Assembly: GCF_003051055.1 (NCBI RefSeq)
Contig: NZ_QAON01000014.1
Location: 1 to 64,000 of the forward strand
DNA length: 64,000 bases
Direction: 5' to 3'
Source of the DNA: Agitococcus lubricus
GTDB lineage: Bacteria; Pseudomonadota; Gammaproteobacteria; Pseudomonadales; Moraxellaceae
The translations under genes and the position numbers were made by a program. Shown piece by piece: positions 41,467 to 55,111 of this stretch. The notes under the pieces were generated by a model that saw only the letters and a program-made list of their open reading frames with translations, did no database searches and was not told where the DNA came from. The number at the start of each line of letters is the position of its first letter. Within the stretch, counting starts at the first letter, position 1.

Positions 41467-43293
41467 TTAAACGTCTATTTTTTCACCGAGTGTCTGACGA
41501 CGTGTTTTTAAGCTGGCAGGTAATTTGTCAGCAATTTTACTAAATAGCTCATCATGGCTGGCTAATTCACGTTGCCAAGCGGCTTTATCTTGGCTAGTGA
41601 CAGCAGTGAAAAGCTCTTGGCTAAACTCACTACCTTCCCAAGATAAATCTTCATAACGTGGCACAACACCAATTGGGGTGTCTTGACCTGTAGCACGGTT
41701 TTCACAGCGGTCAATAATCCATTGTAAGACGCGCATATTTTGACCAAAACCAGGCCAAATAAATTTGCCATTGGCATCGGTACGGAACCAGTTCACATTG
41801 AAGATTTTGGGTAGCTTGGCACCAGACGCTGCAAGTTTTTCACCTACAGTTAACCAATGTGCGAAATAGTCACCAACGTGATAGCCACAGAACGGCAACA
41901 TTGCAAAGGGGTCACGACGCACAACACCTTGTTGCCCAACCGCCGCAGCGGTAGTTTCTGAACCCATCGTTGCTGCTTTGTAGACCCCATCTTGCCAGTC
42001 GGTTGCTTCTACAACCAGAGGCATGGTATCGCCACGGCGACCACCAAAAATAAAGGCAGAAATTGGGACGCCATTCGGATTTTCCCAATCTGCATCGATT
42101 GATGGACATTGACCCGCAGACACAGTAAAGCGAGAATTGGGATGAGCGGCTTTACGACCACAATCGGGCGTCCAATCTTGACCTGTCCAGTCAATCAAAT
42201 GGGCTGGTGCAGTTTTGCTTAGACCTTCCCACCATACATCGCCATCATCTGTTAAGGCAACATTCGTAAAGATGACGTTTTTATCTAAAGTCGCCATACA
42301 ATTCGGGTTAGTCGTGGTGTTAGTACCGGGTGCGACACCAAAGAAACCTGCTTCTGGATTGATGGCATATAAACGGCCATCTGCACCGGGTTTTAACCAA
42401 GCGATATCGTCACCCACAGTTTCAATTTTCCAGCCTTCAAAACCTGCAGGGGGGACTAACATAGCAAAGTTAGTTTTACCGCAGGCAGAAGGGAAGGCCG
42501 CAGCAACATAGTGCTTTTCGCCTTGTGGATTAGTCACGCCTAAAATTAACATATGTTCAGCTAACCAACCTTCATCACGTCCCATCACAGAAGCAATACG
42601 TAAGGCTAAACATTTTTTACCTAATAGGGCATTACCACCGTATCCAGAACCAAATGACCAGATTTCACGAGTTTCTGGGTAATGAACAATGTATTTTTCG
42701 GGATTACATGGCCATTTAACGTCATCGGCAGCCGTTAAAATCGGTTGGCCAACCGTATGCACACAGGGTACAAAATTGCCATTTTCACCTAAAACATCAT
42801 AAACAGCTTTGCCCATACGCGCCATGATACGCATATTGACAACGACATAAGGGCTATCTGATAACTCAACACCAATTTGTGCAATATGGCTACCTAATGG
42901 CCCCATAGAGAATGGAACGACATACAAGGTACGTCCACGCATGCAGCCTGCGAATAAACCGTTTAATTTATCACGCATAACCGCAGGGTCTTCCCAATTA
43001 TTGGTTGGGCCTGCATCTTCACGTTTAGCAGAGCAAATAAAGGTACGTTCTTCAACGCGCGCAACATCGGAAGGGTCAGAGCTGGCGAGGTAAGAGTTAG
43101 GACGTTTTTCGGGGTTTAGCTTGCGCATCATGCCTGTACTGACCATCAGGTCTAACAAGCGTTGATTTTCCTCTTCACTCCCATCACACCATTCGATGCG
43201 GTCTGGTTGTGTAAGTGCCGCAATTTCGGCGACCCAAGCGATAAGTTTTGTATGTTTGACAAAAGAGGGAGCATTGACAATAGTTTGACTCAT
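41467..43293 (-). CDS. pckG: Phosphoenolpyruvate carboxykinase (GTP)
   Basis: The enzyme converts oxaloacetate and GTP to phosphoenolpyruvate, GDP and CO2, the first committed gluconeogenic step. The sequence has the GTP-type features: the P-loop [13 protein letters not shown] with the reactive cysteine, the metal and substrate region, [14 protein letters not shown], and [11 protein letters not shown] near the end. I choose ATG 43293 ([14 protein letters not shown], 608 residues) over the TTG at 43311, because homologues start at this point. Three inverted repeats lie upstream and may control it. Confidence 0.97.
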
Positions 43294-43366
43294 GGTGTGA
43301 GGCCCAATCAACTAAAAAACATCCATGCACTACAGGGGTGACCTGATAGTGGTAATAAAGAAAGTG

Positions 43367-43392
43367 TGACATATCAGTTTTCTGATATGTCA
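43367..43392 (-). promoter_or_regulatory. Palindrome upstream of pckG
   Basis: A perfect inverted repeat with 11-bp arms (TGACATATCAG / CTGATATGTCA) and a TTTT spacer begins 74 bases before the pckG start. It has no T run, so it is unlikely to be a terminator; an operator for a dimeric regulator or a leader hairpin is more likely. Confidence 0.45.
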
Positions 43393-43547
43393 TGTGATTC
43401 AAAAACTAGAGCTTGCTGTCACATAGTACAAATAGGTTTTAGTTTAGCTAAAACACATGACGGTTAGTCTCTGTAATGGAGTAAGGTCTTAATATTATAT
43501 TTGTACCTAATACCTATACAGAGATTTGCTCTAAGGTAGCTGTTTTA

Positions 43548-43574
43548 CCTTAATACCATAGAACAGTATTAAGG
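43548..43574. repeat. Inverted repeat between pckG and tRNA-Ser
   Basis: CCTTAATAC and GTATTAAGG form 9-bp arms around a 9-base spacer. Function unknown. Confidence 0.4.
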
Positions 43575-43577
43575 GTG

Positions 43578-43602
43578 TGTGATGATGTTCGACATCATCA
43601 CA
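43578..43602. repeat. Strong hairpin just after tRNA-Ser
   Basis: TGTGATGATGT and ACATCATCACA form an 11-bp stem with a 3-base loop, 6 bases past the tRNA-Ser 3' end. The T run lies on the wrong side for a classical minus-strand terminator. It may help end or process the tRNA transcript. Confidence 0.45.
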
Positions 43603-43608
43603 AAAATA

Positions 43609-43698
43609 TGGCGGAGGTGGTGAGATTCGAACTCACGGACGGGGTAAACCGTCGCCGGTTTTCAAGACCGGTGCCTTAAACCGCTCGGCCACGCCTCC
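43609..43698 (-). tRNA. tRNA-Ser (anticodon TGA)
   Basis: The 90-base minus-strand sequence folds as a class II tRNA with a long variable arm: acceptor GGAGGCG/CACCTCC, D arm with GGCCGAGCGG, anticodon arm CCGGT-CTTGAAA-ACCGG carrying TGA, T arm GTGAG-TTCGAAT-CTCAC, discriminator G and encoded CCA. The sixth acceptor pair is C-A rather than a normal pair. It stands alone upstream of pckG on the same strand. Confidence 0.96.
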
Positions 43699-43763
43699 GG
43701 ATTCAGGGCGGCAAGGATACTCTAAAAAAGCGAAATTGTCACTAAAGGACAATACTTTCCGAT

Positions 43764-43790
43764 AAAAAAAGGCGCGAAATTCGCGCCTTT
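43764..43790 (-). terminator. Terminator of the ExbB/ExbD/AgmX envelope operon
   Basis: The GC-rich stem AAAGGCGCGAA/TTCGCGCCTTT is followed on the minus strand by a run of seven T. It lies 16 bases past the stop of the last operon gene (43806). Confidence 0.88.
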
Positions 43791-43805
43791 AGTCACAAAC
43801 TTGAT

Positions 43806-44828
43806 TTAGTTGGGATAGAAATTGACAGGATATTGTCCTTTCCAAACCTCAACATTGTCCTCGCCAAAGTTAAAACCTTTGACCATTGCAACAATTTTAT
43901 TTTCTAAATCAGGGTTGTTAAGGTCACTAGAAGCGACTTCACAGTTAGTCACTTTACCACTGGGGTCAATGGTGAGTTTTAACTTAATAGTCCCTTCCAT
44001 GCTGGGGTCATCTTTTAAGGCACGTTGATAGGCCTGATTGAGGCGACCGCCATTTTGGTCAAATACACGACGAATATTTTCGGTCGTCCGTTTACCAATA
44101 CCCCCTTCGCCACGTGTTTTGCTCCCGTCACCACCACCGCCAGTATTAGCGCCATCACCACCCGCAATGAGGCCACCTTTCATATCTTTGGTGCCTTTAT
44201 TGCCTAGGTTATAGTTACCCGTACCGCCTTTGCCTCCCGCTGTGCCTCCGCCATAACCAGAGCTAGCAGCGCCCGTGTAGGCTCCTACTGCGCCTGAGCC
44301 TGCACCTGCTTTTGCTGTAATCATATTACGGCTTGTGCCAACGGGCGCACCGCTATCTTTTTGCAATGCACCGCCAATATTGGGTTTGGAGGTGGCAACA
44401 ACGTCCATATCACGTAAGTCGGCTAAATCATCGGCAACAGATGAGAGGGCTTCTTGCGCTTTTTGGCGTGCTGCTTTTACCTGACTTTCAGTTGGTTTGG
44501 CTTTGGCTACTGGTTCTTCTTTAATTTCTACTGGTTTGGGTTTGTCCTGTGGTTTGGGTTTGTCTTCTGCAACGTCTTTTTTAGACTCTTTCTTCTCAAT
44601 CGGTTTAGGAGGAGGAGGGGGAAGCTCTATTTTACGTTCAACAATACGTGCAATCCGTTCTGGGACAACGGCTTCATTACGCGGTATGGGCGGAACTTTA
44701 ATCCACGGAATCACGACAAAACAAATAATAGAAATGGCTAATGCAATATAGTTAATGCGTTTGGCGCGTTTGGAATCATTTGGGAGTTCGTCCCAAGGTA
44801 AAAAACTTTTAATCAGTAATGCTGACAT
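43806..44828 (-). CDS. AgmX/PglI-type TonB-like energy transducer
   Basis: The 340-residue protein has one N-terminal membrane helix (about 26-44). A Pro/Lys/Glu-rich periplasm-spanning region follows (about 70-120: PPPPPKP, EDKPKPQDKPKPVEIK), then a Gly-rich linker (about 165-235). The C-terminal domain (about 240-340) contains IRRVFDQNGGRLNQAYQRAL and IKLKLTIDPSGKVTNCEV, the AgmX/PglI domain related to the TonB C terminus. Such proteins carry motion from an ExbB/ExbD-type motor to outer-membrane partners. It is the last gene of the operon and overlaps the ExbD-like gene before it by one base. In Myxococcus, AgmX (GltJ) belongs to the gliding machinery. Confidence 0.82.
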   Translation of the reverse strand: MSALLIKSFLPWDELPNDSKRAKRINYIALAISIICFVVIPWIKVPPIPRNEAVVPERIARIVERKIELPPPPPKPIEKKESKKDVAEDKPKPQDKPKPVEIKEEPVAKAKPTESQVKAARQKAQEALSSVADDLADLRDMDVVATSKPNIGGALQKDSGAPVGTSRNMITAKAGAGSGAVGAYTGAASSGYGGGTAGGKGGTGNYNLGNKGTKDMKGGLIAGGDGANTGGGGDGSKTRGEGGIGKRTTENIRRVFDQNGGRLNQAYQRALKDDPSMEGTIKLKLTIDPSGKVTNCEVASSDLNNPDLENKIVAMVKGFNFGEDNVEVWKGQYPVNFYPN

Positions 44829-45331
44829 TATTTTTTACCTCCACGCACGACAGCAAAGGATATCTTTGCGTAGTCACTGTCGCTACACGTCGCCATGACT
44901 TTACGAATCACACTGTAGGGCGTGTTTTGGTCGCCTAAAATAGTGATTTCGCGTTCAGGAACGCCTTGTTCATTCAGTGGTGGCGTCGTTTTTGAGGCGC
45001 GATACTTTAACTCGGTCGACAACGCTGGAATGATATCATTTTTTAATGCCATCACTGCGGCGACTGAACTCACCTGCATATCTTGAACCAAAATATCTTT
45101 ATTGGTAATCATAACCACTAAATTTTCTTTAGGGTCTTTTTCGGCAATCGACTGCGGTAACTTTAAGTCTTTAGTATCTGGCAATTTGGCAGGATTGCTG
45201 GAGTTAACAAGCAAGAAGAACACCAAAATGGTAAAGATATCCATCAGTGAGGTTAAACTTAAAGTCGCTTGACCCCCTTTAAGACGACGTTGTAAACGCT
45301 CATGACGTTTTACATGAGGGCTTTTATTCAT
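44828..45331 (-). CDS. ExbD/TolR-like motor subunit with the conserved aspartate
   Basis: The 167-residue protein has a basic N terminus, one membrane helix (about 24-44) with the proton-carrying aspartate in SLMDIFTILVFFLLV (Asp31), and a periplasmic ExbD domain. Homologous ExbD, TolR and AglQ/S subunits sit inside an ExbB/TolQ pentamer and use this Asp for proton flow. It overlaps the next ExbD-like gene by 4 bases, so the two are made together. Confidence 0.88.
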   Translation of the reverse strand: MNKSPHVKRHERLQRRLKGGQATLSLTSLMDIFTILVFFLLVNSSNPAKLPDTKDLKLPQSIAEKDPKENLVVMITNKDILVQDMQVSSVAAVMALKNDIIPALSTELKYRASKTTPPLNEQGVPEREITILGDQNTPYSVIRKVMATCSDSDYAKISFAVVRGGKK

Positions 45332-45846
45332 TGAGCACCTCCCATTGTGTCGGGTGGGGCATCACCAATACTGACATCAGGAAAAAGTGCATAACGTGCA
45401 AGTTTGCCTGTTTCGGTACTGACCACAATGCGCACCGCATCCATTGTATGAATCAATTTATCGTAGGGGGTATCTTGCTCAAGCAATATACTCGCTTCAG
45501 TGACGAGCGGGTACTGAGTCTTTACTGTGCGTAAATAATCGTTGAGTGCTTGATAGTCTAATTCCCCTTTGTCGTTAGTGGGTATGGTTTTTAGCGGGCC
45601 AGTTTGACGGTCGGCAACTAAAAACTTGTTTTTATACACCACGACTTCCAAAACCAAGGGTTTCTTTTGCTCAGCAGCCGCACCAGCACCACCACTAGGC
45701 ATAGATACCTGTAGCACAGCGACTTGTGTAAACACTGCATTTAGTAACAAGAATGGAATTAAAATCACCATTAAATTCATAAATGAGGTGATATCTAATT
45801 CGGGATTCGTGTCACGAGCTTTTTTAAGGCGTGACCGCATAATCAA
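45328..45846 (-). CDS. ExbD/TolR-like subunit lacking the conserved aspartate
   Basis: The 172-residue paralogue has the same architecture: basic start, one membrane helix and a periplasmic domain. In the helix the aligned segment reads SFMNLMVILIPFLLL, with Asn24 where ExbD-type subunits have the proton-carrying Asp. An Asp18 lies just outside the helix but in a different place. If the subunits form a heterodimer inside the ExbB ring, only one of the two would be protonatable. The gene is between the ExbB-like gene (34-base gap) and the Asp-containing ExbD gene (4-base overlap). Confidence 0.85.
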   Translation of the reverse strand: MIMRSRLKKARDTNPELDITSFMNLMVILIPFLLLNAVFTQVAVLQVSMPSGGAGAAAEQKKPLVLEVVVYKNKFLVADRQTGPLKTIPTNDKGELDYQALNDYLRTVKTQYPLVTEASILLEQDTPYDKLIHTMDAVRIVVSTETGKLARYALFPDVSIGDAPPDTMGGAQ

Positions 45847-45880
45847 CTCCTCTTCTATAGCAACGCATTAAATCCAAGTC

Positions 45881-46513
45881 TTAAGCGTTGTTACGAATTT
45901 GACGTAAAATATTGAGGAGTTTAACGGAAGCCATTTCTAAACTTTCAACGACTTCACCTGTGCGGCTTTGTAAAAAGGCATAGGCTAACAATAATGGAAT
46001 CGCAACCACCAAACCAAACGCAGTCGTGTTCATGGCAACCGAAATTGAGCTAGATAATAAGTCACCTTTTTGTGCGGGGTCAGCATTAGCAACAGCGGCG
46101 AACGCAATAATCAAACCTTGTACCGTACCTAACAAACCTAATAAGGTAGAAATGTTAGCAAAGGTGGCAATAAATGGCGTACGTGCCTCTAGGCGTGGTA
46201 AAACTTCCATTAAGGCTTCTTCCATCGCGGTTTCAACATCTTCCACACGACGGGCGGTTTCGTTGCGTTCTAAACCATAAGCTAAAATACGACCAATTTC
46301 AGAGTCATTATCTTTTACAGCTTTTAAAGCTTTTTGCGTATCACCTTTTTGAATGACGGGAAAAATTTCATCCCAAAGTGCTTTGTTAGTATTTTTGACA
46401 CGATTTAAGAAAATAAAGCGTTCGATAGTGATACCAACACCGACAAAAAGAATTAAAAGAATGGGGTACATAAAGAACCCACCGTCTTGAATAAAACGAA
46501 CGACTGACATCAT
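45881..46513 (-). CDS. ExbB/TolQ-like proton channel subunit
   Basis: The 210-residue protein has the MotA/TolQ/ExbB fold: one N-terminal helix (about 13-32), a cytoplasmic region (about 35-110), and two more helices (about 118-140 and 160-190). The conserved motifs are ISTLLGLLGTVQGLIIAF and VAMNTTAFGLVVAIPLLL, including the channel threonines. A single ExbB gene serves two ExbD genes here, as one AglR serves AglQ and AglS in Myxococcus. GGAGTAT precedes the start region. Confidence 0.9.
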   Translation of the reverse strand: MMSVVRFIQDGGFFMYPILLILFVGVGITIERFIFLNRVKNTNKALWDEIFPVIQKGDTQKALKAVKDNDSEIGRILAYGLERNETARRVEDVETAMEEALMEVLPRLEARTPFIATFANISTLLGLLGTVQGLIIAFAAVANADPAQKGDLLSSSISVAMNTTAFGLVVAIPLLLAYAFLQSRTGEVVESLEMASVKLLNILRQIRNNA

Positions 46514-46546
46514 GATGGTGATACTCCTGTTATTTAAAATAAAAAA

Positions 46547-46873
46547 TCAAGGTGTTTTAATGGTTGATAATTCTTGTAGTGCGCGAGCAAAATTCACTTC
46601 GCGAGAAACTACATCCCTGTCGATAGGCTCTAAGGTCTCTTGTAAAACAGAGGCTGTGATAGGATTTTTGGGCAGATAGTTTTCTTTATCTTTCCATGGC
46701 ACTAAGTTGAGCTCTAATGGCGCATCTTGGCTACCAATCACATCTGTCCCAAATTTAATATCCACATCGCTGCTGCTTGCTTTAGCAGGCTTTTTAGTGG
46801 TGGCCGCTTTATCGGCAGCAACACTGATGCTTGAGATGACTAAACAGCTACAGAGTAATACGGATTTCATCAT
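46547..46873 (-). CDS. Small secreted protein of the envelope operon
   Basis: The 108-residue protein has a signal peptide (MMKSVLLCSCLVISSISVAA). The short polar mature part has a Lys/Ala/Ser-rich start, then a conserved-looking segment (FGTDVIGSQDAPLELNLVPW). I do not recognise the family. The gene overlaps the TPR lipoprotein gene upstream by 4 bases and precedes the ExbB gene by 33 bases, so it probably belongs to the same complex. Confidence 0.7.
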   Translation of the reverse strand: MMKSVLLCSCLVISSISVAADKAATTKKPAKASSSDVDIKFGTDVIGSQDAPLELNLVPWKDKENYLPKNPITASVLQETLEPIDRDVVSREVNFARALQELSTIKTP

Positions 46874-48066
46874 GGCTGCGCTCCTGCGGCCGCTGAGTTT
46901 TCAGCATTGACCGTTGTTGTTTGTTCTACTGGCGTAGATTGTACGGCTTCTTGCGAAACAGTGGCAGTGTTTGGCTTCACGTTCTGGGTGTTTTTTGCCT
47001 GTTTTTTGCCCTTTTTGTTGCTTTTGGTATTTGTAGCCGTTGTATTAACAGGCATCACAACAGGCGTGCTTGAGTTGTCTGCTTGATTTGGACTGGCTGT
47101 GGTGTTATCGGTGTTTGTGGTCTCAGGATTGGCTGTTGGACTCTTATCCGTTTGACTATCAACAGCCTTCGTGCTTGTGTTATCAGGCGTCACAGTTTCT
47201 TTAGCAGGGGCTACGTCATTATTCGGACTGGGTGCAGATTCACTGGCAGGTGTTGCTTCTGGTGTTGGTGTTTCCTCAACAATGACTTCTTCTACTTTAG
47301 CCTTAACTGGAGGTTTATACACGCCTGTTCGCTTTTGTAAATCTACAATCCATTTGGCTACGGTTGCATCGGGTTTGGTTTGTAGTGCTTGATAGGCTTC
47401 ATAATGTTGTAAGGCAAAGGGGAGGTCTTGCAAATACAAATCCGCCAATACACCTAAATTAAAGTGCGCTTTTGCATACTTAGGACTGATGGTTAAGGCC
47501 TGTTCATAGGCTTTGCGAGATTCTACAAATTGACCTTGTTGACGTAAAACAAAACCCTGTAAGTTATAGATGTAGGGATTTTTACTATTAATACCCTGTG
47601 CTTTTTTGAGTAGCAAATCGGCTTCTTTAAAGTTTTGCTGTTGAATACGAATGAGGACTTGGTTAAGTACAGGGCCTACAAACTGGGGAGCTTTGGCTTG
47701 TACTTCTTCAAATTTGTTATAGGCGTCGTCCCATTGTTGCGCCTTGAGTAAGGTCAGTGCCTGTTGATAGTCTGCTAATACAGGCGCAGCCAGTTTCTTT
47801 TGTTCATCAGAAACGGGTGGAAGCTCTGGTTCTTGAGAGGTATCGACGGCCGCTTTAGTGACTTCTTTAACGTCGTCTTTTTTGACAATACCTTGAGCTG
47901 CGCGCTCTTTGGCGAGTTTTTCTAAATCAGGTTCGGTACTTTCGCTTACGGCTGTTGTGGTGGCTGTTGTAGGCTCTTCAACAACGGCTTTTTTGGGAGA
48001 AGAGGCGCAGGCAGCTAATAAGCTGCCCATTAAAATCGTCAATCCGAGTTGTTTGGTGTTGAGCAT
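46870..48066 (-). CDS. TPR-repeat lipoprotein of the envelope operon
   Basis: The 398-residue protein has a lipobox (LLAAC, Cys20). A disordered acidic linker leads to TPR repeats (about 85-240: ALTLLKAQQWDDAYNKFEEV, ADLLLKKAQGINSKNPYIYN, SRKAYEQALTISPKYAKAHF). The C terminus is a long Pro/Thr/Asn-rich low-complexity tail (about 265-398). TPR lipoproteins such as GltE belong to the Myxococcus gliding machinery; here the neighbours make a similar scaffold role likely. It overlaps the small secreted protein gene by 4 bases. Confidence 0.8.
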   Translation of the reverse strand: MLNTKQLGLTILMGSLLAACASSPKKAVVEEPTTATTTAVSESTEPDLEKLAKERAAQGIVKKDDVKEVTKAAVDTSQEPELPPVSDEQKKLAAPVLADYQQALTLLKAQQWDDAYNKFEEVQAKAPQFVGPVLNQVLIRIQQQNFKEADLLLKKAQGINSKNPYIYNLQGFVLRQQGQFVESRKAYEQALTISPKYAKAHFNLGVLADLYLQDLPFALQHYEAYQALQTKPDATVAKWIVDLQKRTGVYKPPVKAKVEEVIVEETPTPEATPASESAPSPNNDVAPAKETVTPDNTSTKAVDSQTDKSPTANPETTNTDNTTASPNQADNSSTPVVMPVNTTATNTKSNKKGKKQAKNTQNVKPNTATVSQEAVQSTPVEQTTTVNAENSAAAGAQP

Positions 48067-48076
48067 AACTGATTCC

Positions 48077-51000
48077 TCAATAAATCTCGTCGATACTGCT
48101 TTCTACTAGCTCAGTCTTTTTATAACGACCAGGCGATAATTCGGCGAGTGCAGCAAAGCTTTTTTGGACATAGCTGTCATAGACTTGCTCTTTAACCAAA
48201 TTGGCATTCACGGTATAAATGCCTATTGCTTTGTCTGCTAAGGGTTCTGCTTGCTCCTCAAGTAAAATACCATATTGCTCTAATTCGAGTTCACTCAAAC
48301 CTTTAGGACGTTCACTCGCTAATAGGTCTGCCGAGAGTTTTTGATAGATTTGTGCCTGTTGATAGTTGGCTGCTGTGGTAAATTCAGCAACGCCAATCAG
48401 GGCAACTTTGTTATAGGCACCTAATGCCGCTTGCATGGCCTTTTTCTTGGCCGCCAAACTCACTTTTAAGGGCTGTTTGAGAGTAATCGCTGCAAAACTA
48501 TCATATAAAGGTTGACTCATTTTGAAGTGAGCCATCGCGCCAAAATAACGAACACGTGGGCTGGCTTTGTCTGCGAGTTTATCGTAGGTTTGTGCCAAGC
48601 TCTTTAAGCTATTTTGTGCTTCGGTGTTGAGGTTATTTTTGCTGTAATACGTGTATAAGCGGAAAGTTGCTTCGGCACGTTGGTCAACGGGATTATTGGT
48701 ATCCGCAATATATTGTTGATACACCTTGATGGCTGCTTCGGGTTGTTTAATTTTTTCATAGGTTTCAGCAGCTAACCACAGTGCCTCACGTGCGGCGGCA
48801 GGATTTTTCTTGAGGTCGCGTGCAGCAATGACTTGATACTGTTGGGCTGCGTTGGATAAGTCATCCGTTTTTTCATAGGCGACTGCCAGCTTTTCTGGAA
48901 TATCTTGGCTCAATGGGTTGTCAGGGTATTTATCGCGAAAAGCAATTAAGACGGGAATAGCTTCTTTATATTTTTCGCCATTTAACAAGACAGTGGCAGC
49001 ATCAAAGTCAGAGCTTGCACGTAGTTTGGGGTCTGCGGCTGCTTGTGCGGCTTTTAAGAAGGCCTGTGCGGCTTGTTCGGGATTTTTGTCGTCGCGGAAT
49101 TTTTCGGCTTGACGATAATACGTCGTTGCTAAACGGTCTTGATAGCTGGCTTTTTGCTTGCTGTCGGCGATATTAAATGCCAATACTTGTTGATACGATT
49201 TATCGGCTTCTTCCCAATTCCCTTTATCGAAATACGCATTCGCAATAATCGCGGTTGCATCTAAACGTAGTTTTTCGTCAACAGGGGGATTCATGGCCAA
49301 TAAAGTTTGTGAAGTGCGTACTGCACCATCAAAGTCTTTGAAATTCAAATAAAGATTGGTCAGACCTTGTAATAATAAGGCGGCATTTTTATCTTGAGGT
49401 TGACTAGCAGCAAATTTGAAAATATTCGCTTCTAGGTCAGCACTCAGTTGTTTTGCACTGTCATCATAACTGGTGTAGTTATCAACAATATACTGAATAA
49501 CGCCTTGCATTACGACGGCTGTGTTAGGGTCTTGTGGGAACTTTTCTGCAAATTTGTAAGTGCTCGCTGCCCGTTTAGGGAAAATATCTTTGCGTGCGGC
49601 AAGGTCGTTGGCCAACGATTTATCCCAGTCTTGATAACTCAGGAGGGCAAAATACGCCGATTCTGCGCCTTTGGGATTGTTGTATTCGTAAGCGGTCTTT
49701 TCAAATTCGACAATCGCACTTTTATAGTCTTTTGCAGAATATAACACTTCGGCGAGCAATTGATTAACCACAATGGCATCTTCTTCTTTGGGGTTTAGGC
49801 TCAAATGCGCACGATACCATGTTGCTGCTTTTTGATAATCTGTCGGTAGATTGTTGATTTGTGCTAGGGCATGATAATGTTTAGCAAGGTCTACAATATG
49901 ACCTTCTAAGGTAGGCCTTAGTTTAGTACGGGTGGCCTCATCGGCTTGTTGCCAGAATGCGCTATTTGCATCATAGTGTTTAACAAAATCTTCTTTGGCA
50001 GTCACCACTAAAGAAGGAAAGCCGCCTAATTCATAGACATTAATGACCGCTGTACTTAAGTCAGGCGCAGTGGGGTCAAAGGGATGACGATTTATAAAAG
50101 AGTTATACGTATCGGCTGCTTCTTTGTACAGTTTTTTGCCAATATAGGCTTTGGCTAAGTTGTTGTAAATAATAGATTCATAGAACTTTTCACCGACTTT
50201 ATCAAAATACACATCGGCAGATTTAGCCCCTTCTAATTGAATAAAAGATAAGCTAATCACTTCTAGAGCATCATCTAGCGCTTCTTGTTCTTGTTTGCTT
50301 TTTTTAGGTTTTATCCAAATTTTTTCAGCAAAACCAAAGAATTCAGGTAAAGCAGATTCGTAATCGGAGGCACGATAAAATGACCAACCCCGTTTGTATA
50401 AGGATTGGTCATAGAAATCTGTTTTTTTGTCGCTGAGGACTTTACCGTAATAGTCAGCGGCTTCTAAAAATCGACGATTGGCAAAGGCATCTTCTGCCAA
50501 ACGGAAACGTACTTCTGTCAAATGGGGGGAGCTTGGATATTTCTCCGCAATCATTTTTAAGGCGGCAACTGACTCTTCTTTTTTGGTGAGTAAGTCATAG
50601 TTTTTAGCAAGCTCATAGTAAATTTCAGCACGTGATTCCGACGCAGGCATACGCTCAAGTAAATCTTGGTAAAAATCTACATTTTTCTCGAGCATTTCTT
50701 GTTCGGCTTTATCGGCTGCACTGCCAGAGCCTGTTTTCAGTCGGCGAGCAACCTTTAGATAGGCCGTGGCTGTGCCAGGGTCTTTAGCTTTTTTGGCATC
50801 TGCGACGAGTTGATTGTATAGCGCCTCGTTGAGTTTTTCGTTAATTTGTACTTCTAAACCGTCAGAGTTGGGAGCAACTTCGGTCACACCTGTCAGCGGA
50901 TTTGTGCGTGGCTGTAGTTTGTTTAAGCGTTCAGCAGGGTCGGCAAAATTAGCCGCAGGCTCAGGGTCTTTGAGAATAGGCACTTTGACACTGTCTAAGC

Positions 51001-51148
51001 TCGCCAAGGTTGGTTTGAATTTGGGTATGGCGGCAGGTGGTGGCACTACAACAACAGGTTTAGTAGGCGCAGGGGTACTACACGCAGTTAAAAAAGCGAT
51101 TGCGAGTGCTAAGGGACTTAGCCGATAAAAAGAAGTCTTAACAATCAT
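48077..51148 (-). CDS. Large TPR-repeat lipoprotein of the envelope operon
   Basis: The 1023-residue protein has a lipobox (FLTAC, Cys22) and a Pro-rich linker. Tandem TPR-like repeats then fill almost the rest (for example YYELAKNYDLLTKKEESVAALKM in shorter form, FRLAEDAFANRRFLEAADYY, NLAKAYIGKKLYKEAADTYN, IANAYFDKGNWEEADKSYQQ). It should be an outer-membrane-anchored periplasmic scaffold. The start overlaps the stop of the upstream gene by 4 bases (ATGA), showing translational coupling. It is similar in kind to the large TPR proteins of Agl-Glt and TtpC systems, but I cannot assign orthology. Confidence 0.82.
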   Translation of the reverse strand: MIVKTSFYRLSPLALAIAFLTACSTPAPTKPVVVVPPPAAIPKFKPTLASLDSVKVPILKDPEPAANFADPAERLNKLQPRTNPLTGVTEVAPNSDGLEVQINEKLNEALYNQLVADAKKAKDPGTATAYLKVARRLKTGSGSAADKAEQEMLEKNVDFYQDLLERMPASESRAEIYYELAKNYDLLTKKEESVAALKMIAEKYPSSPHLTEVRFRLAEDAFANRRFLEAADYYGKVLSDKKTDFYDQSLYKRGWSFYRASDYESALPEFFGFAEKIWIKPKKSKQEQEALDDALEVISLSFIQLEGAKSADVYFDKVGEKFYESIIYNNLAKAYIGKKLYKEAADTYNSFINRHPFDPTAPDLSTAVINVYELGGFPSLVVTAKEDFVKHYDANSAFWQQADEATRTKLRPTLEGHIVDLAKHYHALAQINNLPTDYQKAATWYRAHLSLNPKEEDAIVVNQLLAEVLYSAKDYKSAIVEFEKTAYEYNNPKGAESAYFALLSYQDWDKSLANDLAARKDIFPKRAASTYKFAEKFPQDPNTAVVMQGVIQYIVDNYTSYDDSAKQLSADLEANIFKFAASQPQDKNAALLLQGLTNLYLNFKDFDGAVRTSQTLLAMNPPVDEKLRLDATAIIANAYFDKGNWEEADKSYQQVLAFNIADSKQKASYQDRLATTYYRQAEKFRDDKNPEQAAQAFLKAAQAAADPKLRASSDFDAATVLLNGEKYKEAIPVLIAFRDKYPDNPLSQDIPEKLAVAYEKTDDLSNAAQQYQVIAARDLKKNPAAAREALWLAAETYEKIKQPEAAIKVYQQYIADTNNPVDQRAEATFRLYTYYSKNNLNTEAQNSLKSLAQTYDKLADKASPRVRYFGAMAHFKMSQPLYDSFAAITLKQPLKVSLAAKKKAMQAALGAYNKVALIGVAEFTTAANYQQAQIYQKLSADLLASERPKGLSELELEQYGILLEEQAEPLADKAIGIYTVNANLVKEQVYDSYVQKSFAALAELSPGRYKKTELVESSIDEIY

Positions 51149-53070
51149 AATTTTTCACTAGCTTTGGGGGTTGGCGCTGTATCAGCAGGCGCTAATTTGC
51201 TTTCAGTACGCTCCATCCCTAAATAAGTTTCGGCAATATAAGCGGTTAACCGTTGACGGCGTTCGTCAATCAAATTCTTGGCCAATGAGCGTAAATAGTT
51301 TTGGTACATGAGTTTGGCATCTGCTACCTCACCTTGTAATTTTTCGGCTTTGGCTTTGAGACTAGGAAACTTTTGACTGTTATTTCGTTGAACCACCGCT
51401 TTATTATCGGCTAACAAGGTTTCAACGGTAGCCAAGCGAGCCTTAGTCTCGCGCAGTTGATTGGTGGAGTCTTGCAGTTTTTCATAAATCTCATCGCGTG
51501 ATGCCGCATGACGAGCAACTTCAAACAGGGTTAAATCTTTTAAGCGGTTCAAACGTGTGAGCAGTTCTTGACTTTGTTTTTCATCTAGCCCCAGTTTACT
51601 CACTTTACGAATCAGTTTATTGATTTGTTGGAGGCGGGCGGTTTCGGCTTGGGTCGCTGCTTCAGAGTAAGCGTCTGCATTTGTGCCTAGACGCTTCGCT
51701 CTGATTTGAATGGCTTGCCATTTTTTGACTAAACCCACATATTTGTCGCGTAAAACTTTGAGCTGTGCTTCTTTGGCCGCAAGTTCGGGACGACGACTTT
51801 CCAGTGTCTGAGCCACTTCTTGTAGGGCAGTAATATCGCGCAGGCGCTCTTCTATTAAAGTTTGTAAACGTCCTAATTGCTGATATTGTCTAAAACCCTC
51901 GTTAAAGGCAGGGGAGGCAAATAATTTACTAAATAAGCCTGCCGTAATCGCATTGTTCGTGGCGGGAATTGTCTTTAAGTTTAAGGGGTCGGCATCGATG
52001 GTATTCATGCGTTGAGGGGCTAAGACATCAGGCCAATTGGCTTCGTCAACGCGTAAGGCGGAGCGCTCTAGTTGAGCTAATTGCTCACGTAGCGTTAATG
52101 CGCCAATACGATAACTGGCAATAGCTTGTGTACGAGCACCCAAATCTTCATAAACGCGCGCGGCCAGCAAAAAAGCCTCTTGTACCGCAGGGTCGGCAGG
52201 ATTGCGACTTTGTAACTCTAGCGCGGCGGGTAAAGTTTGCTCTAAGTCTTTATTCAAATAATACGAATAAGCCAAACTTAGTAAAGCAGAATTACTGTAA
52301 GGACCTTCTAAGCGTACACGCAATAAAGATTCGCGTGCCAGTGCGTATTTTTTATCTTGTAAGTATTTATAGGCAATAGCTAATGCCGCTTTATCTTTGA
52401 GGTTTAGGTTTTCGTCATCTGTGCCCGCTAAACGAATGACTTCGTTCAAATGAAAAATACCGACCTCAGGTTTGTTATTTTGAATATAAGCAATGCCTAA
52501 GTTGTACAAACCGTAACTGGCGGTAATCCCGTCACTACGCATGTCGGTGAGTAGATTAATCGCTTCTGGGTAGCTTTTTTTACGAATCAGAATATTGGCC
52601 AGCATCAAACGGCGTTCTGACTCTTGGTAAGAAGTTAAATTGCTCGGTGGTTTACGCAAATAGTTTTCGGATGGGGCATCATTCCCCATTTTATAGAGTA
52701 ATTTTGCATAACGCAGCCAAGGGGCATTACGTGTGCTAGACGGAATATCTTGTGCTTGAACGCGTGATAAAGCGGCATCTCCTTCGCGTGGCAAACCAAA
52801 CTCCGTGTATAAGTCACCCAATAAAATTTCTGTCGTTGGGTCATCGGCACTAAATAGTCCTTTCTCTTTATCTTCAATGACTTTATTGAGCGCAGAAAAA
52901 TGACGCCCTAAATGATAGTCATAGTAGATTTGGCCAAATTCTGGCTCGCGTGTATCCGTCGAGACGTCTAAACGTTTTTTGAGGTCTACTGCGTGCGCAT
53001 GTTGACTTGTAATGGCAACCGCAATGGCGATGGAGGCATATCGCCATGTTTTTTCCGCTATCCGCTTCAT
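51145..53070 (-). CDS. Periplasmic TPR and coiled-coil protein of the envelope operon
   Basis: The 641-residue protein has a signal peptide (YASIAIAVAITSQHAHA). TPR-type repeats follow (about 50-330: YGLYNLGIAYIQNNKPEVGIF, ALAIAYKYLQDKKYALARES), then a long coiled coil (about 400-610, with LEKE-type heptads such as LKAKAEKLQGEVADAKLMYQ). No lipobox cysteine is present, so it is probably soluble in the periplasm. It is the second gene of the operon and overlaps the large TPR lipoprotein gene by 4 bases. Confidence 0.78.
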   Translation of the reverse strand: MKRIAEKTWRYASIAIAVAITSQHAHAVDLKKRLDVSTDTREPEFGQIYYDYHLGRHFSALNKVIEDKEKGLFSADDPTTEILLGDLYTEFGLPREGDAALSRVQAQDIPSSTRNAPWLRYAKLLYKMGNDAPSENYLRKPPSNLTSYQESERRLMLANILIRKKSYPEAINLLTDMRSDGITASYGLYNLGIAYIQNNKPEVGIFHLNEVIRLAGTDDENLNLKDKAALAIAYKYLQDKKYALARESLLRVRLEGPYSNSALLSLAYSYYLNKDLEQTLPAALELQSRNPADPAVQEAFLLAARVYEDLGARTQAIASYRIGALTLREQLAQLERSALRVDEANWPDVLAPQRMNTIDADPLNLKTIPATNNAITAGLFSKLFASPAFNEGFRQYQQLGRLQTLIEERLRDITALQEVAQTLESRRPELAAKEAQLKVLRDKYVGLVKKWQAIQIRAKRLGTNADAYSEAATQAETARLQQINKLIRKVSKLGLDEKQSQELLTRLNRLKDLTLFEVARHAASRDEIYEKLQDSTNQLRETKARLATVETLLADNKAVVQRNNSQKFPSLKAKAEKLQGEVADAKLMYQNYLRSLAKNLIDERRQRLTAYIAETYLGMERTESKLAPADTAPTPKASEKL

Positions 53071-53100
53071 AATGTTATTCTGTCCTGATGACGAAACTGA

Positions 53101-53631
53101 TTAGTTTTTACTTTCCCATTCACGGAAGTTAAAAACGGCAGGTTGCGCATTCGATACGTCATCACCCGCTTTGATTTCAACAATCTTACGTAAGCTATTT
53201 TTGCTAAAGGTATAATTGACCGTGCGTTGAAAGTCTTTGCCGTTGGCGTCGTAGGCAGTAATAACCGCTTGAATATTGTGTGAGCCGCTGTTGACATTAC
53301 CCATATAGAGTCGCTGTAGGCCACCTTTGCTCAAGGCCACGGTTTCTTGTTCAGAATAAGCATGATAACTCACGATTTGGTCATCAATACTCAGCTTGAC
53401 ATCGACTAGACGCAGTTTACTGCCTGCATTGACTCCGACAAGAATGGTTGTGCTGGAGCTAGGGAACAACAATTCATTCTCTAATTGAGACACATCGCGG
53501 TTTAAGGTCAATACGTCGGACTTTAGGTCTTGTAAGTCTGATGGCAAACTGTTTTCGCCAGCCGCAAAGCTGGTAGAGCTAACAGCAGCAGTGAGACAAG
53601 CTACGAGTAAAAAAGAATATCCCTTGTTCAT
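53101..53631 (-). CDS. Secreted beta-rich protein, first gene of the envelope operon
   Basis: The 176-residue protein has a signal peptide (MNKGYSFLLVACLTAAVSST, cleavage after SFA). A short helical segment follows (SDLQDLKSDVLTLNRDVSQL), then a beta-sandwich-like region with YHAYSEQETVALSKGGLQRL and HNIQAVITAYDANGKDF, resembling an Ig-like fold. I do not recognise the family. It starts the minus-strand operon; the next gene begins 30 bases further on. Confidence 0.72.
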   Translation of the reverse strand: MNKGYSFLLVACLTAAVSSTSFAAGENSLPSDLQDLKSDVLTLNRDVSQLENELLFPSSSTTILVGVNAGSKLRLVDVKLSIDDQIVSYHAYSEQETVALSKGGLQRLYMGNVNSGSHNIQAVITAYDANGKDFQRTVNYTFSKNSLRKIVEIKAGDDVSNAQPAVFNFREWESKN

Positions 53632-53959
53632 GATAATAATCAGTCGCTATGGTTAAAGAAATTAGCTTGGGTATCATAAGACGAAGACGCTACCGAAATC
53701 AAAGTCTGATCGTGCGAAGTCTTAAGAAAAATAACATTAAACCCTATTTTTGCTGTCTAGTTAGCAGAATTTTAACGCGCTAATGTTTATTGCTCCGTAA
53801 ATTGTGCTTAGCAAATATCGTTATTTGTATAGGCTATGTCGCAATCAATGTCCTTAAAAAATAGACGAGAGCCAATGAATTAGCGTTAAAATGCGTGGCC
53901 ACCGCAGTCTGGGCATATTAGCGTCTCTATGCCTGCTGTGCCTATTATTTTAGAGTTAT
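53632..53959. promoter_or_regulatory. Divergent region between the envelope operon and pdxB
   Basis: These 328 bases hold promoters for the minus-strand envelope operon and plus-strand pdxB. The sequence is AT-rich in the middle. I see no clear operator palindrome and no gene. Confidence 0.45.
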
Positions 53960-55111
53960 ATGACAATTATGCGTATTATTGCCGATGAAAACATGGCCTT
54001 AGTGCACCATTTTTTTGGCCATTTAGGTCAATTAGAGTGCGTATCAGGACGCCATTTACACCCTGAGCAGGTACGTGATGCGGATATTTTGTTGGTGCGG
54101 TCGGTGACAACAGTCAATAAAGCCTTATTAGACCAGAGTCGTGTACGTTTTGTGGGGAGTGCAACCATTGGTGCAGACCATTTGGATATGCAGTGGCTGA
54201 ACGAGCAAGGCATCACGGTGAGTACGGCGCCTGGTTGTAACGCACGTAGTGTTGTCGATTATGTGTTGACGGCACTGATTCATTTGGCAAATCAGTATCA
54301 ATTTGACCTTACTCAACGTGTATTGGGTATTGTTGGCTTAGGTAATGTGGGTTATTTGTTGGCTAAAACGGCGCAACAGATGGGGTTGCGTGTACTAGGG
54401 TGTGACCCGTTGGTAACGCGTACTGATATTGAGCAGTTACCACTAAACGAACTACTGGAACAAGCGGATATTGTCTCGTTACATACCCCTTTAACCAAGA
54501 CGGGAACGTATCCTACCTATCATTTATTGAATGCCCAGAATCTACAAAACTTAAAAAAGCAGAGTATTTTAATCAATACAGGCCGAGGAGCGGCGATTGA
54601 TAACCGTGCATTGTTGGATTTTTTGACGCATCGGCCAAACTATTTACAAGCCGTTGTATTGGACGTTTGGGAACATGAGCCTTTACCTAATGCCGACCTC
54701 ATGCCATTGACGACGATTGCGACACCACACATAGCAGGCTATAGCTTAGAAGGAAAATGGCAAGGTACGGCATTTATTTATCAAGCCTTATGTCAATTTT
54801 TACAGCGTGAACCGCAATACAGACTGGCTGATTTTTTGCCACCCAATCGTCAGTTACAGTCCATCCAAGAAACGGGTCAATTATGGCCTGATTTACATCA
54901 GGTATTGGCACAAGTCTACCCTATAGTAAATGACGATACAGCCTTACGCCAAACCTTAGGTTTAATAGATAGCGAGCGAGCATTAGCCTTTGACCAACTG
55001 CGTAAACACTATTGGCAGCGTCGAGACTTAACGGCGTATGACGCAAGTCACACCTTGTATTCGTCCAAACTACAGACGATGTTAGTGGCGATGGGTCTGA
55101 AAACGGCCTGA
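53960..55111 (+). CDS. pdxB: Erythronate-4-phosphate dehydrogenase
   Basis: PdxB oxidises 4-phosphoerythronate in the de novo pyridoxal phosphate pathway. The 383-residue protein starts with the family motif RIIADENM and has the D-2-hydroxyacid dehydrogenase features: VRSVTTVNKALLD, the NAD-binding GIVGLGNVGYLLAKTAQQMG, LHTPLTKTGTYPTYHLL, the catalytic VLDVWEHEP with Glu, and TPHIAGYSLEGK with His. The C-terminal dimerisation domain is shorter and more divergent. ATG 53969 (MRIIADENM) is also a possible start. Confidence 0.94.
   Translation: MTIMRIIADENMALVHHFFGHLGQLECVSGRHLHPEQVRDADILLVRSVTTVNKALLDQSRVRFVGSATIGADHLDMQWLNEQGITVSTAPGCNARSVVDYVLTALIHLANQYQFDLTQRVLGIVGLGNVGYLLAKTAQQMGLRVLGCDPLVTRTDIEQLPLNELLEQADIVSLHTPLTKTGTYPTYHLLNAQNLQNLKKQSILINTGRGAAIDNRALLDFLTHRPNYLQAVVLDVWEHEPLPNADLMPLTTIATPHIAGYSLEGKWQGTAFIYQALCQFLQREPQYRLADFLPPNRQLQSIQETGQLWPDLHQVLAQVYPIVNDDTALRQTLGLIDSERALAFDQLRKHYWQRRDLTAYDASHTLYSSKLQTMLVAMGLKTA

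Follow-up and report, generated by a model that had tools for sequence, protein, structure and literature searches.

The first 64,000 nucleotides of contig NZ_QAON01000014.1 of Agitococcus lubricus (assembly GCF_003051055.1, Moraxellaceae), hereafter the window, contain an operon of nine genes at positions 43806 to 53631. According to the open reading frame (ORF) list, all nine genes lie on the minus strand, and they are named A to I here in the order of transcription (Table 1). The gaps between consecutive genes from A to I are +30, −4, +10, −4, +33, +34, −4, and −1 bases. These data confirm the layout given in a preliminary description made from the sequence alone, namely, nine same-strand ORFs separated by −4 to +34 bases. 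A tRNA downstream of the operon was the sole Rfam match within positions 43000 to 54500, and the 14 terminator-like sites counted in the region are hardly commoner than chance (shuffled mean, 12.6).

Table 1. Features of the operon in window coordinates (TPR, tetratricopeptide repeat)
Feature	Position	Strand	Description
Gene A	53101..53631	-	Secreted 176-amino-acid protein; ORF, conserved family
Gene B	51145..53070	-	641-amino-acid protein of TPR/coiled-coil type; possible equivalent of GltC, judged from size and gene content and not from a profile
Gene C	48077..51148	-	1023-amino-acid TPR lipoprotein; possible equivalent of GltD, judged from gene content and not from a profile
Gene D	46870..48066	-	398-amino-acid TPR lipoprotein, long low-complexity tail
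Gene E	46547..46873	-	Secreted 108-amino-acid protein; conserved P..VPW stretch, C-terminal helix
Gene F	45881..46513	-	ExbB/TolQ/AglR-like motor protein; PF01618, 4e-29
Gene G	45328..45846	-	ExbD-like axle subunit (PF02472), Asn24 at the membrane-Asp position of E. coli ExbD/TolR
Asn24 codon (AAT) of gene G	45775..45777	-	
Gene H	44828..45331	-	ExbD-like axle subunit (PF02472), Asp31 retained
Asp31 codon (GAT) of gene H	45239..45241	-	
Gene I	43806..44828	-	Candidate force transducer, AgmX/PglI-GltG-type TonB-like C-terminal domain
Terminator-like stem-loop and T-run, 3′ of gene I	43768..43790	-	Consensus match only

Profile scans recovered most of the parts that the preliminary description had listed: an ExbB/TolQ protein (F; MotA_ExbB, 4e-29), two ExbD proteins (G and H; 1.5e-14 and 3.1e-12), an AgmX/TonB-like protein (I), and two TPR lipoproteins (C and D, matched by TPR families). 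The exception was the TPR character of B, for which the matches were weak and all under the Pfam cutoffs; B also gave weak SMC-like matches, and its coiled-coil half is our own reading. Gene I matched TonB_C (2.9e-5), NF033768, the AgmX/PglI C-terminal domain (1.9e-18), and TIGR01352 (1.2e-7), and no FHA domain was found in it in the Pfam scan. An N-terminal membrane segment and a Pro/Lys-rich linker were recognized in I by eye. Signal peptides and lipoboxes were likewise judged by eye, the lipobox cysteines lying in LTAC in C and LAAC in D.

This gene set has been described before. In its relevant passages, the study of Luciano et al. in 2011 (PMC3169522) reports a conserved core of gltC, gltD, gltE, gltG, aglR, aglQ, and aglS, which form a cluster in Gammaproteobacteria and in Geobacter together with a further core gene that has no counterpart in Myxococcales. 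The core is presented there as the ancestor set for Agl-Glt; its function is given as unknown, and the authors consider it unlikely to power movement by itself. Wartel et al. in 2013 (PMC3858216) restate the gammaproteobacterial core and, in the part concerned, report that a single Agl motor drives two transducer complexes, Glt and Nfs. The operon has the composition of Group B of Luciano et al., with one AglR-like, two ExbD-like, and one GltG-like gene clustered with TPR genes. Its domain content bears out the likeness to Agl-Glt drawn in the preliminary description; with the same gammaproteobacterial gene set on record since 2011, the idea of something new in kind falls. The "complete trans-envelope apparatus" of that description holds for the anatomy of a proton-driven apparatus and not for completeness in gliding, the extra gliding genes being unrecognized among the nine. 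We therefore read the operon as a free-standing representative of the known Agl-Glt core complex and not as a new machine. This membership is based on gene content, on the published text with the trees described in it, and on weak curated-model matches, and orthology with the Myxococcus genes is presumed.

A homolog of protein B was present in 85 of 369 sampled Gammaproteobacteria genomes (E ≤ 0.001), a count that includes 5 genomes with E values worse than 1e-10. Among the carriers are the window's genome and one of the same family (G007); no homolog was found in three relatives from other families of the window's order. We compared two sets of loci: 95 class-sample loci, a chosen part of the protein B match list, and 80 named loci, the best 80 of at least 566 confirmed places, which are closest to the window's family and hence a biased set. 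The core genes in view always followed the order A to I (95/95 and 80/80), which is more than a chance arrangement. All nine genes were in view at 47 class-sample and 41 named loci; the remaining loci are truncated at a contig end, have B and C fused into one frame, are split, or lack the motor. Among the named carriers are Steroidobacter, Peristeroidobacter, Aliiglaciecola, Aquabacterium, Thiohalomonas, Thiodiazotropha, Woeseiaceae, and Geomonas. In the window's genome, gene C is present in a single copy.

The motor protein F forms a group of its own. A tree of 53 motor rows split 27 core motors from 26 others by a 100/100 branch, with E. coli TolQ, E. coli ExbB, and three paralogs from the window's genome on the noncore side. 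Six rows (one of 310 amino acids and the five lowest scoring) were removed before the tree was built, and it omits a fourth paralog, which was too long, and three of 30 loci without a usable frame. The window's motor is the sister of the G007 motor (98/97). In a motor profile search of 22 genomes, members of the family scored 299 to 377 bits versus at most 133 bits for the rest. Grouping of the motor with ExbB of TonB systems, which would have refuted the preliminary description, was not seen: in the tree the motor stands apart from ExbB (100/100), with the E. coli protein as the only labeled ExbB and a long-branch warning for it and for locus L002. A place in anti-phage defense (Zorya) was also considered and rejected: the motor gave only a weak ZorA match (3.5e-5), and the other eight proteins were unmatched.

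In E. coli TolR and ExbD, the Asp of the motif I-N-x-x-P-x-x-D is the proton carrier. We aligned G and H rows above 120 bits (124 and 119 rows, of which 120 and 115 are distinct, with some genomes in both sets). At the motif-Asp column, Asp is invariant in H (119 of 119 rows), whereas G mostly carries Asn (112 of 124 rows), the other rows having Asp (11) or Ser (1). The window's proteins follow this pattern, the residues being Asn24 for G and Asp31 for H. Among the named carriers, Steroidobacter agaridevorans (L179) has Asp in both chains, and Aliiglaciecola (L211) is of the Asn type. Ten of the 11 Asp-type G rows, three of them from Steroidobacteraceae, cluster weakly (81/68), and the other is from Geomonas; a tree of 46 rows, which includes 33 of the 124 from G, requires two changes of the residue state, the bootstrap being unsettled. 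Thus, the axle looks asymmetric, with one Asp chain and one Asn chain, and, to judge from the sequences, protons would be carried by H alone. The situation in Myxococcus is different: according to the relevant part of a 2022 review (PMC9389320), AglQ and AglS both carry Asp, and the choice between hetero- and homodimer is open. Because a chain lacking the Asp could hardly function as a homodimer, the Asp/Asn difference bears on that question. No description of such a difference between two ExbD-like chains was found in the titles and abstracts of the open-license papers matched. Separately, we observed related F-G-H-I sets, no A to E being in view, beside other large proteins, at two places (L267, G077:C5; L268, G179:C213). 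F scored 305 bits and the Asn/Asp difference between G and H was retained in these sets; one stop was counted inside the G179 motor match.

To describe the surroundings of the core in relatives, flanking proteins were clustered and one or two members per cluster were scanned against Pfam. Recurrent genes upstream of A encode a DUF3570 barrel of divergent type and a TlpA-like thioredoxin (27 loci each), ApbE (17), and DUF4266 (10 clustered). Other recurrent upstream genes encode two proteins with weak, sub-cutoff matches to outer membrane protein barrels, one of them with SH3, an HZS_alpha-domain protein that usually has a pair of CXXCH motifs, a LamG protein that also has two, and a 545-amino-acid protein without a Pfam match. 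At one locus (L231, G014), the series is seen as far as A and B, after which the locus ends. Of the 59 named loci that extend 3 kb or more upstream of A, 53 contain at least one of DUF3570, ApbE, TlpA, LamG, and the 545-amino-acid protein.

The association extends to whole genomes. DUF3570 was present in 71 of 85 core-bearing genomes versus 24 of 284 others (Fisher P = 1e-40, with genomes counted without ancestry correction). Among the matches listed, sorted by hand, divergent DUF3570 was found in 53/85 core-bearing genomes versus 4/284 others, and the canonical type showed a less sharp difference (30/85 versus 22/284); the sorting was borderline for fragments in G136 and G076 and for G268, which is possibly canonical. 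Counting by family, which partly controls for ancestry and takes 182 families (the highest code seen), gave divergent DUF3570 in 28 of 45 families with the core versus 3 of 137 without. When the 53 genomes with divergent DUF3570 were read by hand, the gene lay directly beside the core cluster in 28, at 4 to 28 kb in 14, and on another contig in 11. Altogether, the core tends to share a genome with an outer membrane redox module (DUF3570 barrel, thioredoxin, DUF4266, ApbE, and heme proteins), often right next to it, and this linkage provides many species with a definite candidate cargo that can be tested. Clusters of DUF3570, DUF4266, thioredoxin, and ApbE, and the flavinylation of one DUF3570 protein, were described by Meheust et al. 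in 2021 (PMC8238504), whose main text does not mention TPR, ExbB, or gliding. That was the only paper on DUF3570/DUF4266 found in the open literature, where no paper joining flavinylation with gliding motility, or ApbE with ExbD and tetratricopeptide, was found either.

One subtype has a longer gene I of about 450 amino acids. Eight proteins downstream of long-I loci were scanned, and seven gave DUF11-type matches (L064, L065, L066, L070, L074, L184, and L202), those of L064, L065, and L066 being below the Pfam cutoff; the eighth, at L072, is a cytochrome containing 21 CXXCH motifs. At the Geomonas locus L190, one DUF11 protein and one protein with an OmpA domain lie upstream, and no such large frame adjoins I at L061, L104, and L152, which also have a long gene I. 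As a side observation, the window's genome has DUF11-repeat frames of up to 4626 amino acids (G000:C1:271007-284396 and G000:C4:48223-48567).

Not every cluster has its own motor. A and B occurred without F to I above threshold at 27 class-sample loci in 26 genomes. In four of these (G006, G186, G239, and G264), the cluster lies at a contig end, and they fell outside the motor profile search; the search found a family motor elsewhere in all of the remaining 22 (16/16 plus 6/6). In one family (G035, G178, and G285), A-B(-C) stands with DUF3570, and C or D to I lies at a separate place, with ApbE beside the latter part in two of the three genomes and an A-like gene also there in G178. Because of these split copies, the redox module is tied to the core in these lineages. 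As far as gene arrangement can tell, the split and motor-less clusters fit a shared motor.

We also examined structure models and searches for the individual proteins. The model of A (predicted local distance difference test [pLDDT] score, 87) has a predicted N-terminal helix at residues 31 to 55 and a domain that we read from its strands as beta-sandwich-like. A fold search of A against the PDB gave nothing at E ≤ 0.001 (best E, 2.5e-3); a CopC fold match (E, 0.03) was not significant, and nothing was drawn from it. The model of E was of low confidence (pLDDT, 71). In the search of solved structures, F retrieved TolQ and ExbB, I retrieved TonB weakly (E, 0.03), C retrieved generic TPR proteins, CpoB, and BamD, and A retrieved coiled coils only (E of 0.2 or worse). 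D, with its long low-complexity C-terminal tail, has 398 amino acids in the window versus about 190 to 300 in most relatives. B and C form a single frame of about 1390 to 1540 amino acids at six loci (L067, L068, L125, L126, L127, and L135); this fusion, found in several lineages, suggests that B and C may work together. A 407-amino-acid frame upstream of the G007 operon matched no flank family and was set aside as, by eye, spurious, lying opposite a pdxB-like gene.

We consider it likely, with a probability of roughly 70%, that the operon, as a stand-alone Agl-Glt core, is a proton-driven force transducer for surface components and not a motility apparatus. F would form a pentameric wheel that, with G and H as a two-chain axle, makes up a 5:2 proton motor of the inner membrane. 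Protons passing via the Asp of the H chain would move I, whose linker and TonB/GltG-like tail may span the periplasm and pull on TPR and other periplasmic proteins arranged as a scaffold. This scaffold would consist of A and B plus, attached to the outer membrane, the lipoproteins C and D, with E as a putative short docking peptide, and would hand the force to outer membrane or surface cargo. In many relatives, the cargo is probably the linked outer membrane redox module, and in the long-I subtype, giant DUF11-type proteins; in A. lubricus, it would be encoded away from the operon. A bolder version combines an obligate mixed axle with an interchangeable drive, whose load would be either surface redox assemblies (outer membrane barrel, thioredoxin, heme, and flavin parts) or giant proteins of the surface, and in which a single motor would work for several transducer sets per cell. 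We put it forward tentatively, as possible but short of an even chance; an obligate mixed axle of one Asp and one Asn chain would leave only half of the axle positions proton-competent.

Several observations weigh against the transducer reading. No module genes adjoin the operon in the window, and five redox flank profiles gave no match among the neighbors of the window's copy or of the G007 copy, so the redox cargo is not derivable from the window itself; the window's genome has a canonical ApbE-DUF3570-DUF4266-TlpA set on another contig (L229, G000:C3:184000-203900). DUF3570 was not seen in 14 of 85 core-bearing genomes. The flavinylation motif was found in only 8 of 35 matched DUF3570 proteins, including the canonical one of L229, which carries TGAS, so flavinylation of the linked barrel is not supported as a general feature. 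Profile support for the named Glt components was weak as well: gene I matched the GltG model NF033760 at 6.3e-16 and 58 bits against a cutoff of 650, D matched the GltE model at 9.8e-5, the GltC model matched 1 of 23 B-family and 2 of 29 C-family members, and no GltD-named model was among the matches. A motor encoded elsewhere may be no more than part of another complete copy, which would explain some of the motor-less clusters. Finally, functional work on any gammaproteobacterial copy was not found in the open-license literature.

Three other functions were weighed against force transduction to surface cargo. The operon could aid secretion, that is, the export or assembly of outer membrane proteins or polysaccharide in place of the movement of mature surface cargo. 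The barrel, heme, LamG, and giant secreted proteins linked to the core in relatives suit this idea, as do the BamD-like TPR matches of C and the related Nfs, which acts on the polysaccharide coat according to the relevant part of PMC3858216. However, the annotated flank families include no recurrent secretin, BamA-like gene, or glycosyltransferase, and the same part of that paper reports that Agl-Glt and Agl-Nfs of Myxococcus act after export; a secretion aid is therefore doubtful, although it retains appreciable weight. An extra Ton- or Tol-Pal-type system, serving nutrient uptake or outer membrane constriction, would account for the ExbB, ExbD, and TonB_C domains, for the CpoB/YbgF-like TPRs in C, and for TolQ being the best named motor model of F, albeit at 72.6 bits against a cutoff of 221. 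In relatives, one flank protein has PD40 propeller repeats, a repeat also present in TolB. Yet the motor stands apart from both TolQ and ExbB (100/100), the two ExbD subunits are unlike each other, and the window's genome has a separate TolQ-clade gene on another contig (L001, C13). Moreover, the operon does not combine a TolQ-clade motor with TolB and Pal, no TonB receptor was found among its nine genes in the profile scan, and the annotated recurrent flank families, which are part of all flank families, include no TonB receptors or Pal. We judge a system of this type improbable.

Less probable still is an engine for surface motility by gliding, the role of Agl-Glt in Myxococcus. The core parts equal Agl-Glt by domain, and the very long DUF11-repeat frames of the genome, though on other contigs, would be in keeping with such an engine. 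The extra gliding genes (Group A gltA, gltB, gltF, gltH, gltI, gltJ, and gltK) are nevertheless unrecognized among the nine by models named for them, apart from a weak GltJ match in the tail of I, and CglB was unmatched in the window's genome, although the control genomes gave no match either.

The function of the core outside the myxobacteria was called unknown in 2011, and we found no later functional study in the literature covered. What is new here is a set of comparative clues to the motor and cargo of a known, functionally unexplained system. With the core of Luciano et al. (PMC3169522), the operon shares one AglR-like, two AglQ/S-like, and one GltG-like protein clustered with TPR proteins; their core is reported from Gammaproteobacteria and Geobacter, and we found a copy in Geomonas (Geobacteraceae; L190). 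Their main text gives, in the relevant parts, seven genes and one additional gene, whereas nine genes recur here; the word aspartate is absent from it and its relevant passages contain no redox linkage, and both are described here. The flavinylation clusters of PMC8238504 have domains in common with the core neighbors of many relatives, but in contrast to the proteins treated in the relevant part of that paper, the linked DUF3570 is of a divergent type in which few members have the [ST]GA[ST] motif. Motor-TPR-vWA sets reported in Mol Biol Evol in 2025 (PMC12204202) resemble the operon in having a TolQ-like protein, two unlike TolR-like proteins, and a TPR gene by a putative transducer. Their transducer ends in a vWA fold, whereas gene I ends in a GltG/TonB-like domain, and AgmX and GltG go unmentioned in that text. 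Ton and Tol-Pal share the motor superfamily and the TonB-like C-terminal domain with the core, but the core motor groups apart, and the core has two unlike ExbDs and a large TPR set. The closest comparison is with Agl-Glt and Agl-Nfs of Myxococcus xanthus, which likewise have a motor of one ExbB-like and two ExbD-like proteins, a GltG-type transducer, and a TPR scaffold. They differ in their extra gliding genes, none of which was recognized in the operon, in the FHA domain of GltG/PglI (reported in part of PMC3169522), which the Pfam scan did not find in gene I, and in the Asp of both AglQ and AglS (PMC9389320, relevant part), in place of which one ExbD here has Asn. The M. xanthus Agl motor serves more than one transducer set (PMC3858216, part concerned), an arrangement that the motor-less clusters described here may parallel.

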